Origin: Candidatus Aminicenantota bacterium
GTDB lineage: Bacteria > Acidobacteriota > Aminicenantia > Aminicenantales > Saccharicenantaceae
Assembly (NCBI GenBank): GCA_002877915.1
Contig: PNJE01000018.1
Span: 1 to 43,288, forward strand
Reading direction: 5' to 3'
DNA length: 43,288 nucleotides
The notes under the pieces: model-generated
The model's database searches: none
What the model saw: only the letters and a program-made list of their open reading frames with translations
Told to the model about the DNA's origin: nothing
Shown here: piece by piece, positions 30,632 through 33,930 of the stretch
Position numbering within the stretch: the first letter of the stretch is position 1
Layout of the letters: each line of letters begins with the position of its first letter
Program-made: the position numbers and the translations under genes

Positions 30632-30661
30632 TTGACATAAAAATTTCTTAGTTGCTAAATA
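30632..30661 (+). promoter_or_regulatory. sigma70-type promoter of the TonB receptor
   Basis: A perfect -35 TTGACA at 30632-30637 is followed 17-18 bases later by CTAAAT/TAAATA (30655-30661), a weak -10 match. TATATT at 30660 is too far for standard spacing. Transcription from here would give a leader of about 115 bases. Confidence 0.5.
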
Positions 30662-30691
30662 TATTAGAACCAGAAAAGAAAGGAGGTGGGA

Positions 30692-30721
30692 ATGTCGGCG
30701 TTTCTAAATTATAGGGTCTGA
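30692..30721 (+). CDS. 9-codon leader ORF with perfect Shine-Dalgarno
   Basis: ATG at 30692 follows AGGAGGTGGG at 30681-30690 and encodes MSAFLNYRV before a TGA. The ribosome site is as strong as any in the window, which is unusual for so short a frame. It ends 8 bases before a hairpin in the leader of the TonB receptor. It could be a regulatory leader peptide; no attenuation-type run of a single amino acid is present. Confidence 0.4.
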   Translation: MSAFLNYRV

Positions 30722-30728
30722 GGGTGTC

Positions 30729-30779
30729 TTCCTGCCTTTTAGGTTTGGCAGGAAGGAAGGTTATTGGTGAAAAGGAGGG
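30729..30779 (+). promoter_or_regulatory. leader hairpin and alternative pairing to the receptor ribosome site
   Basis: TTCCTGCC (30729-30736) and GGCAGGAA (30747-30754) form a perfect 8-bp stem with a 10-base loop. The overlapping stretch CCTGCCTTTT (30731-30740) can instead pair with AAAAGGAGGG (30770-30779), the ribosome site of the receptor, at 9 of 10 positions including one G-U. The two structures exclude each other, as in translational attenuators. Confidence 0.4.
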
Positions 30780-30783
30780 TAAA

Positions 30784-31407
30784 ATGAAAAAAGGATTATG
30801 GTGGAAAAGGCTTTTCCTGTTGAGCCTCGTTTTTGCCTTTCTGGTTCCAGTAGTCACTGCTCAAACCATTGAATATGGAAAGCTGAGCGGCACGGTGGTC
30901 GATGAAGAAGGAGCTCCTCTTCCTGGGGTAACGGTGGAAGTTACCAGCCCGGAGATGATAGGCGGGAAGAGAGCGACTCAGACTTCGGCCCGGGGTTCTT
31001 ATGTATTCCTTAACTTGCCTCCTGGCAAATATACTCTGACGGCTTCTCTCCCTGGTTTTAAAACCATCAAGCAGGAAAACATAATCATTACGGCTGGATC
31101 TTCCATGGTGGTAGATGTAAAGATGGAAATGGGGAAATTAGAAGAAACTGTCACCGTCACGGCCGCCGGGCCAGTGGTTGATGCTAAGACTTCAACTGTG
31201 GCTACCAATCTGCAAAGCGAGCTGCTGGCCAAGTTGCCGACCAGCCGCGATGCTTTCTATGATTTGGCTTTGACTACTCCAGGAATGGTGTCTCAAGGAA
31301 AAGATGGAAGCTGGCTGCCAAGCCCCAACGCTTATGGCGGAGCTTCCAATGAGAATGTCTTTTTAATCAACGGGGTTAATACTACTAACCCGCGATCAGC
31401 CGCCTAG
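30784..31407 (+). CDS. TonB-dependent receptor, N-terminal fragment (ends at in-frame TAG)
   Basis: 207 residues to the TAG at 31405-31407. A signal peptide (cleavage after VVTA) precedes a carboxypeptidase-regulatory-like domain (about 33-115, GTVVDEEGAPLPGVTVEV, NLPPGKYTLTASLPGFK). The start of the plug follows (LEETVTVTAAGPVVDAK, LAKLPTSRDAFYDLALTTPGM, FLINGVNTTNPRSAA). AGGAGGG sets the ATG at 30784. The frame is otherwise intact and continues after the stop with IGLVNVNYNTVEEVRV, so this is one gene of 1049 codons split by a single amber codon. On its own this fragment has no barrel and could not transport. Confidence 0.85.
   Translation: MKKGLWWKRLFLLSLVFAFLVPVVTAQTIEYGKLSGTVVDEEGAPLPGVTVEVTSPEMIGGKRATQTSARGSYVFLNLPPGKYTLTASLPGFKTIKQENIIITAGSSMVVDVKMEMGKLEETVTVTAAGPVVDAKTSTVATNLQSELLAKLPTSRDAFYDLALTTPGMVSQGKDGSWLPSPNAYGGASNENVFLINGVNTTNPRSAA
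31405..31407 (+). other. in-frame amber codon inside the TonB receptor gene
   Basis: TAG at codon 208 of the receptor frame, in the plug. The following ten codons before the next possible start are coding-like and in frame, with no frameshift. A point mutation from a sense codon, a base-calling error, or suppression are the possible causes. Confidence 0.85.
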
Positions 31408-31437
31408 ATCGGGCTGGTTAATGTCAACTACAATACA

Positions 31438-33930
31438 GTGGAAGAAGTAAGAGTTATTGCTCTTGGCTCCAAAGCTGAATATGGCAGTTATTCAGGCGTG
31501 GCGATTGATGTTTTGACCAAATCCGGCAGCAACAATTTTCATGGTAATTTGTCCGTTTATGGTGCTCCCAAAGCCTGGATTGCTGATAACCAGCCGAAAC
31601 CATCCACACCCGGAGGATCAGTTGATATGGGTCCCTTTGGTCCCTATGGAGAAAGATTGTTTATCGGTCCGGGCGATGATATTTTGAACAAAAATACTCT
31701 GGAATATGAATTTAATGCCACGGCCGGCGGTCCAATTAAAAGAGACAGGGTCTGGTTCTATGCCGGTCTTGATTATATCCGGAGCAATTCGAAAACACCT
31801 TTTTGGCTCGTTCCGAACAGATACTGGGGTCGCTTCGGTGATATTAAAATAACCGCCGAACCCTGGACTAATCACCGGGCCTGGGTCGCTTATCACTACG
31901 AAAAGAACAAAGGAGATGGCTGGACCTGGGATCCTCACTGGGATCCAACCATGACTTATGGCCAGAACAGCCAGACTAATAGCCTATCGGCTCAATGGCA
32001 GTGGATGGCCACTGGTAAAACAGTTTTTACTCTGAAATATTTGGGCTTCTGGAGAAACGATAAACCTTTTATTCCTGCTGATGCTCCAGATCATCCCGGA
32101 TATATTAACTGGTGGAAGTGGTCAACCTATGGAATTAATGGTGCTTTTCCTTATGTCGAGGCTCAGAAGTCAAGCCGTAATACTATTCAGGCGGATATGT
32201 CTTATTATGCAGAAAATTTCCTGGGCGAACATGATATTAAGTTTGGTATTCAATATACCCTTGGTCGAGGCAACTGGGAAGGAGGTTACTTCCAAGGATA
32301 TGCTAATTTTGCCTATCCTGCCCCCTGGACTCAGAACATCAATTATCTGCGCAGCTGGTACGGGGCTACTGGCCTTGTTTTTTATAATGCCCAGACATGG
32401 TTAAATCCTTTCTTAACCGTCAGGACGGCTAATCAGGCTGGCGCTTTCTTCGATGATCAATGGACGCCGACCAAAAGGTTGACCGTTAATCTTGGATTGC
32501 GTTTTGACCGGATGACCACTAAATATGGTAAGGGCAAAGTTTATGCCATGCCAACGACTCCAGAAGAAATTAATTCCCCACCTCCAGTGATAAGAGACAG
32601 GCAGGGCACCGGTAATATTTTTGATTTTAAGTTGTTTTCTCCTCGGGTGGGTATAACTTACTCCCTGACCCGCGATATGAAAACCATCTTTCGGGTTAGC
32701 TATGGACGCTATTATCTGCCGCTATCAGTTGAATACCTGCGAAGGTTCGGGCCGGATATGCCAATGGCTGATATCTATTATCATTTTTACACTATTCCTT
32801 TTGATTTAGTTGACTTGAACGGAGATAACTGGATTTCAGCGGCGGAAACGGTCAATGCTGCCCGTTATCTAAGTGACCCAGCTTATGAGACTCCTGATGC
32901 CAGGCCCAGTTGGTGGGAAGAACATCAGCAAAGAGATTATTCCTGGCAGCTAAAAGTTAAAAGCGGGACTAAAGACCAGTACACTGACCAGATTACGCTC
33001 AATCTGGAAAGGGAGATTATTAAAGACCTATCGTTGAGTGCTACCTATATCTGGAAACGGACCGCCAATATTTTTGTTAACTGGCCTCTTAACAGAGAAA
33101 CCCAGCAGCCGTTTGAATATGAAAGAAAACAATATACTACTCAGTATGGTCAGGTTGTTTCTCTCTACAGCATAGTAATGAAGGACTATAATAACGATGG
33201 ATCGCTTGACGGGGCTGATATTGGTTGGATTGGCAATCACACTGATTACATGGTTGAGAATATGCCGACTATTGATGGAGTTAAACCTCGCCGTCTTTAT
33301 CAGGGACTGCAATTTATGCTGAACAAACGGTATTCTAACCGGTGGCAGCTCTTAGCTTCAGTTCTTTTCTCGTGGTCCGATGGTTTTGCTATGAGACCAG
33401 TTCGCCAGGACTTCAACTTTGAAGGGCCGATGGTCATGGACACTCTGTTTCTGGCCGGCTTAAACCAGACGATTAATAATATGAAGGGGCCACTGCCTCA
33501 TACCCAGAAGTTTGAATTCAAGTTATCTGGCTCGTACAAAGTTCCTTTTATCGAGACTGATCTGGGCTGGAGAATCAGGTATAACTCCGGTCGTCCACTC
33601 TGGCCACTGGAAGTAATCCCGGTGATTACTCAATGGGGCTATCCTCAGGGCTTGGTCATTAATACCGGCGATAACTATATTGTTTCCATTGATCCCAAAA
33701 AGCCCTGGTATTTACCTCATGAAATTGTGGTTGACTTAAGGTTGGATAAAGCCTTCCGCTTTAAAAGAGCTGGTGATATTCGTTTAGCGGTGGATATCTT
33801 GAATCTGTTTAATGAGCATGCGGTGACTAATGCCGGCTATGGAGGTTCCATCGAGCCAGTTATTGGACGGGTTTCAGGTATCACTTATCCTTCCCGGAAA
33901 GTCAGGTTGAGCTTTAGCTACGAGTTCTAA
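31438..33930 (+). CDS. TonB-dependent receptor, barrel part (Oar-like; same frame after the TAG)
   Basis: 830 residues from a GTG without a ribosome site; the frame is in fact open from 31408. It supplies the end of the plug (VEEVRVIALGSKAEYGSYSGVAIDVLTKSGSNNFHG) and a long outer-membrane beta-barrel, rich in aromatic strands and ending in SFSYEF with a C-terminal Phe. This fits the Oar/CarboxypepD_reg class of receptors, which move large ligands such as oligosaccharides or peptides using the proton motive force through TonB. The extracellular loops are rich in W, Y and P. It lies among sulfatase-like, TPR and GWxTD genes and near glycosidases, so glycan uptake is plausible. Ligand unknown. 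The gene ends in a strong terminator. Confidence 0.85.
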   Translation: MEEVRVIALGSKAEYGSYSGVAIDVLTKSGSNNFHGNLSVYGAPKAWIADNQPKPSTPGGSVDMGPFGPYGERLFIGPGDDILNKNTLEYEFNATAGGPIKRDRVWFYAGLDYIRSNSKTPFWLVPNRYWGRFGDIKITAEPWTNHRAWVAYHYEKNKGDGWTWDPHWDPTMTYGQNSQTNSLSAQWQWMATGKTVFTLKYLGFWRNDKPFIPADAPDHPGYINWWKWSTYGINGAFPYVEAQKSSRNTIQADMSYYAENFLGEHDIKFGIQYTLGRGNWEGGYFQGYANFAYPAPWTQNINYLRSWYGATGLVFYNAQTWLNPFLTVRTANQAGAFFDDQWTPTKRLTVNLGLRFDRMTTKYGKGKVYAMPTTPEEINSPPPVIRDRQGTGNIFDFKLFSPRVGITYSLTRDMKTIFRVSYGRYYLPLSVEYLRRFGPDMPMADIYYHFYTIPFDLVDLNGDNWISAAETVNAARYLSDPAYETPDARPSWWEEHQQRDYSWQLKVKSGTKDQYTDQITLNLEREIIKDLSLSATYIWKRTANIFVNWPLNRETQQPFEYERKQYTTQYGQVVSLYSIVMKDYNNDGSLDGADIGWIGNHTDYMVENMPTIDGVKPRRLYQGLQFMLNKRYSNRWQLLASVLFSWSDGFAMRPVRQDFNFEGPMVMDTLFLAGLNQTINNMKGPLPHTQKFEFKLSGSYKVPFIETDLGWRIRYNSGRPLWPLEVIPVITQWGYPQGLVINTGDNYIVSIDPKKPWYLPHEIVVDLRLDKAFRFKRAGDIRLAVDILNLFNEHAVTNAGYGGSIEPVIGRVSGITYPSRKVRLSFSYEF

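Follow-up and report, generated by a model that had tools for sequence, protein, structure and literature searches.

A start-codon-free extended Shine–Dalgarno element upstream of TonB-dependent receptor genes in Aminicenantales: a candidate docking site for the 30S subunit

A TonB-dependent receptor gene of a Candidatus Saccharicenans-type genome (Aminicenantales), located in the window (the whole stretch of DNA that was analysed, 43,288 nucleotides), is preceded by an extended Shine–Dalgarno (SD) element that has no conserved start codon behind it. We consider a start-less docking (standby) site for the 30S subunit upstream of the receptor to be the best explanation of this element, with a probability of about 0.55. 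According to this explanation, the near-full complement of the 16S rRNA 3′ end (AAAGGAGGTGA/G) would capture a 30S subunit as the mRNA emerges, and the captured subunit would then be handed on to the usual ribosome-binding site in front of the receptor. A local hairpin would shorten the spacer and separate the upstream and receptor ribosome sites, and the outcome would be higher or faster translation of the receptor. The features of the leader are collected in Table 1.

Table 1. Features of the receptor leader and receptor gene in the window
Feature	Position	Strand	Details	Basis or remark
Sigma-70-type promoter	30632..30660	+	TTGACA 30632-30637, 17-base spacer, CTAAAT 30655-30660	Sequence and conservation
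Extended SD element	30679..30689	+	AAAGGAGGTGG, core GGAGG 30682-30686	Conserved centre; no conserved start codon behind
Alternative 9-bp helix	30684..30737	+	AGGTGGGAA 30684-30692 with TTCCTGCCT 30729-30737	Would close the upstream SD
Mini-ORF	30692..30721	+	MSAFLNYRV, 9 codons, ATG to TGA	Probably a chance or lineage-local frame
Hairpin	30727..30756	+	TCTTCCTGCC-N10-GGCAGGAAGG, arms 30727-30736 / 30747-30756	Begins ~45 nt past GGAGG; interpreted as a spacer
True ribosome-binding site of the receptor	30770..30783	+	AAAAGGAGGG 30770-30779, then TAAA, then ATG	Sequence; mostly unpaired in the predicted fold
TonB-dependent receptor (CarboxypepD_reg + OMP beta-barrel)	30784..33930	+	ATG 30784	In-frame TAG 31405-31407 interrupts it in the present assembly

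The initial annotation of this region had listed a perfect −35 element, a 9-codon ORF with a ribosome-binding site, a hairpin, and an arm able to pair with the ribosome site of the receptor, and we found all these parts in the sequence where it had placed them. The −35 element is indeed perfect, and TTGACA is equally placed in the aligned congeners and in the distant orthologues L050, L053, L054, L055, L057 and L069; from this promoter we infer that the leader transcript of the window starts at about 30667-30670. Conservation within the genus covers the promoter and extended SD as well as the hairpin and the receptor SD. As a whole, the leader in the window is not unusually structured (z = −0.61; an equally good fold in 60 of 200 shuffles), and an Rfam search at the gathering as well as at permissive thresholds gave no match in the window and, for five related loci, only chance-level matches elsewhere. 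The data support the view that the window leader is a real, conserved RNA-level element of the receptor that involves ribosome binding.

The extended SD, AAAGGAGGTGG, is complementary to the 16S rRNA 3′ end GGATCACCTCCTTT with a duplex energy of −16.7 kcal/mol. The 16S tail used here (GGATCACCTCCTTTC) was taken from the congener L197, because no 16S was found in the window's own assembly. Among the leaders, complementarity to the tail spans 11–13 bases and extends up to AAAGGAGGTGATCA in L174; the simplest reading of a complement of this length is a 30S subunit bound to a start-less SD. The extended SD is kept in the orthologues and also in receptor paralogues, and the paralogous receptors of the same genome have leaders of like layout with different hairpins. 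A covariance model built on the leader of the genus (R1) found the orthologues strongly and the paralogues weakly, because the paralogues share the architecture and not the hairpin sequence.

We then observed the same arrangement at a larger scale. The 15-base pattern AAAGGAGGTGAKAAT occurs at 36 sites in 94 Aminicenantales genomes, compared with one site for the reversed control. Thirty of these loci were read, with gene identity checked by Pfam on examples; 23 lie upstream of receptors having a signal peptide and a CarboxypepD_reg domain, and not as their start site, and the other seven comprise two before a small lipoprotein, one before another gene, two ordinary ribosome sites and two contig edges. 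In the genome of the window itself, start-less intergenic copies of AAAGGAGGTGR stand only before receptors (three copies), the other copies being three ordinary sites and one intragenic site. To avoid a motif-based choice, we also sampled receptors by protein (75 TonB/CarboxypepD_reg receptors from nine genomes), and an anti-SD duplex of −15 kcal/mol or stronger was present between −220 and −45 in 39 of the 75, against 3.3% of dinucleotide shuffles. The corresponding values for the first receptor set were 23 of 39 and 3.1%. The leader class is drawn from the pattern matches and the protein-sampled sets, and the element is missing from roughly one in two of the sampled receptors. Outside the order, exact matches are mostly ordinary ribosome sites (rpsU, HSP20 and others); the start-less form was seen there before a receptor from another family of the phylum (L269) and before a porin-like gene (L277). 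A search of open papers, in which absence is weak evidence, returned nothing relevant on such an element in Aminicenantes or on TonB receptor leaders of this kind. Apart from the receptors, a small conserved lipoprotein (ASCAKPPTQEMDAAKAAVEACK...; L165 and L166, genomes G027 and G021), which has no Pfam match, carries a start-less SD ~90 nt upstream.

Next, we compared the spacing of these leaders. Between GGAGG and the receptor start, the raw distance varies from about 69 to 174 nt. Leaders shorter than 97 nt are unstructured (mean z 0.0), whereas the longer ones are strongly structured (mean z −2.2; Mann–Whitney p = 2e-5), and the rank correlation of leader length with z is −0.68. When the compact hairpins were excised, the GGAGG-to-start distance became 80 ± 11 nt, as against a standard deviation of 25 for the raw distance. 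This tightness was reached by none of 200 shuffle sets at each of three energy cut-offs, in an analysis that depends on predicted folds and rule-chosen start codons, and the constant excised spacing is a post hoc observation that was not predicted beforehand. The onset of the first hairpin falls 40–58 nt past GGAGG in 19 of 20 leaders (median 46 nt; +45 in the window), and the spacer ahead of it is mostly unstructured; the window's own site may be a closed one. From these predicted folds, we read the hairpins as spacers that may hold a working distance between the upstream SD and the receptor start; standby delivery to a nearby start would explain the constant excised distance.

A few other features of the spacers were also seen. 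The stem GGAGUG..CACUCC recurs in the unrelated receptor leaders L174, L185, L189, L034, L168, L210, L218 and L226, with GAGTG found in 10 of 38 spacers (3.1% for shuffles), and looks like a shortened SD/anti-SD pair. In L144 and L161, GGGTAAGGG is present on both flanks of the hairpin (four G-runs), which could conceivably fold into a quadruplex around it. A shared AGGG motif downstream of the hairpin was considered and dropped as not significant (p = 0.08).

The genes with a start-less site also differ in their promoters. A sigma-54-type promoter, TGGC[AC][CT]-N4-6-TTGC, is found upstream of 21 of 43 such genes versus 0.2% of shuffles, and in 3 of 32 receptors without the site; RpoN is present in all four genomes examined. 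The orthologue group of the window keeps TTGACA instead. The form TGGCAC-N5-TTGC precedes, for example, the receptors L174, L034, L031, L032, L191 and L218, and these sequences point to a possible large sigma-54 receptor regulon in Aminicenantales.

We tentatively propose, at somewhat less than even odds, a dedicated leader class of the Aminicenantales that also has isolated examples in other parts of the phylum. In this class, a start-less full-length anti-SD complement would dock the 30S subunit ~80 nt from the start of an outer-membrane receptor gene, the hairpins would serve as length-correcting spacers, about half of the genes would have sigma-54-type promoters, and receptor synthesis would be boosted or timed.

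Two other explanations involve a switch in the leader. The initial annotation had proposed that translation of the mini-ORF shifts the pairing of the leader and so gates the receptor ribosome site. The ATG does stand at good spacing behind the SD in the window species and in 11 congeners. However, the SD stays while 3 of 15 congeners, and all seven of the orthologues that are more distant, have lost this ATG; it is replaced by ATT in L052/L011, by ATA in L043/L013 and by ATT in L058/L010, and the distant orthologues L050, L051, L053, L054, L055, L057 and L069 (52–71% protein identity) keep an SD-like GGAGG and the later hairpin with no ATG behind the SD. Where the ATG exists, the frame runs to other lengths in L041, L059 and L048, and only 1 of 23 protein-sampled leaders, the window itself, has an ATG 4–12 nt past the strong site (background 9%). 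As the ATG is lost and the frame lengths vary while the SD stays, selection is on the ribosome-binding sequence and is not visible on a peptide. A conserved leader peptide was therefore rejected, and the mini-ORF looks accidental; the same may hold for small ORFs annotated behind strong ribosome sites elsewhere. In a single E. coli case, the ribosome-binding site of a mini-ORF reportedly protects the mRNA from RNase E; it is alike in that the site matters and not its peptide, whereas the receptor element is family-wide and mostly without any ORF. Translation attenuation leaders of the erm type need a conserved translated leader ORF together with alternative hairpins. This is the combination that had been proposed here, but the receptor leaders lack such an ORF. 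The hairpin arm can form a duplex with the receptor SD (−9.0 kcal/mol), as had been claimed, but the probability of this pairing in the folded leader is 0.0003–0.0006. Sequestration of the receptor ribosome site by the arm was rejected on this probability (<0.001), and the hairpins of paralogous leaders differ in sequence. With the ATG not conserved and the pairing improbable, control of receptor translation by the mini-ORF is very improbable.

The hairpin itself exists and is conserved in relatives (−17 kcal/mol alone), its stem being 10 bp and not 8 as first described; covariation within the genus is uninformative, with one double change and partly misregistered arms. The other switch would be lineage-specific, with the 5′ arm of this hairpin closing the upstream SD of the orthologue group and some signal, or the ribosome, opening the docking site. 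The alternative helix has a pairing probability of 0.49–0.95, varying with the assumed 5′ end of the window transcript, and the duplex of upstream SD and spacer in the window reaches −14.7 kcal/mol (z = −2.95). This helix can form in 15 of 16 congeners with a few compensating changes (L010, L048), is conceivable by eye in L050 and L054, and pairs 96.5% of the cells in the 16 congeners against at most 74% in slid controls, these cells coming mostly from near-identical sequences. Its covariation is weak, barely exceeding shuffles (14–15 of 500). Over 38 leaders, closure of the upstream SD by the spacer was rejected as a general rule (mean z only −0.7 where a hairpin is present, +0.3 for the remaining leaders), and the closing arm may be a local addition in the orthologue group of the window. 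We regard a switch of this kind as quite unlikely.

The main rival to docking is protection of the mRNA, in which a 30S subunit sitting close to the 5′ end would shield a long, abundant outer-membrane mRNA from 5′-dependent decay, the distance to the start codon being irrelevant. The precedent is STAB-SD of the Bacillus thuringiensis cry3A mRNA, described in PMC4113751 (Agaisse and Lereclus 1996 cited there) as an SD-like, 16S-complementary leader sequence that lies close to the transcript start and is not used for initiation; B. subtilis leaders share the kind of element (PMC3997798). Like STAB-SD, the receptor element is SD-like, complementary to 16S and placed in the 5′ leader some 100 nt or further upstream of the start codon, and missing start codons suggest that it is likewise not used for initiation. 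End protection would also explain a position near the transcript start, and in the window the site lies ~10–20 nt from the inferred start; the E. coli mini-ORF case mentioned above (Lodato et al. 2012, cited in PMC3997798) fits as well. However, the receptor leaders belong to Gram-negative outer-membrane genes, and no RNase J above the family cut-off was detected in the four Aminicenantales genomes searched (G000, G010, G021, G028), while 9 of 14 control genomes pass; this weakens the rival, since RNase J is its known nuclease. The receptor leaders also differ in their fixed excised spacing with hairpins, in their longer complementarity and in the sigma-54-type promoters that about half of the genes have. 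Simple end protection gives no reason for the excised distance to the start codon to be constant, and the sigma-54-type leaders have up to ~80 nt or more between the inferred transcript start and the site. On balance, protection of this type is possible but rather unlikely. It is also conceivable that a protein regulator, for instance a CsrA-like GGA-binding protein or a transcription factor, recognises the motif in DNA or RNA, and that the likeness of the motif to an SD is coincidental. The purine-rich GGA motifs and the recurring stem described above would suit such a protein, but 11–13 matched bases of the 16S tail go beyond what a GGA motif needs and conservation tracks the ribosome complementarity, which make a regulator site improbable.

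To our knowledge, start-codon-free ribosome docking sites are known from single genes, mainly of Bacillus. If the docking explanation is true, conserved docking sites at dozens of receptor genes would form a natural library for asking at what distance from a start codon a bound 30S subunit still acts and whether ribosomes moving along a leader skip hairpins. Distant ribosome standby sites have precedent (Espah Borujeni et al., PMC3936740). These standby sites and that of tisB (PMC7708055) have an upstream landing place for the ribosome, leader hairpins and delivery to a downstream site in common with the docking proposed here. Known standby sites, whether single-stranded or structured, lack a conserved SD, whereas the receptor leaders have one; and the ribosome site of tisB is sequestered, whereas the receptor site is predicted to be open. 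Several points count against docking, besides the dependence of the excised spacing on predicted folds and the receptors that lack the element. If the 30S complex on an 11-base SD is stable, it could hold up initiation rather than aid it; with a receptor SD that is strong and open anyway, the need for a standby site is not obvious; and in the window the predicted fold suggests that the upstream site may be closed by the 5′ arm of the hairpin. The sequence comparisons establish the element itself, its match to 16S, the missing start codons, its position ahead of receptors, the fixed place of the hairpin and the constant excised distance; from these we infer that a 30S subunit probably binds at the upstream site and that receptor translation would be raised or made faster by it.

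Finally, we looked at the TAG that interrupts the receptor gene of the window. The orthologue L154 reads through this position with NPRSSAYGSLVNVNYN. The TPR gene adjoining the receptor also stops with TAG, and therefore the TAG in the receptor is to be taken as a broken gene or an assembly error and not as a recoded stop.
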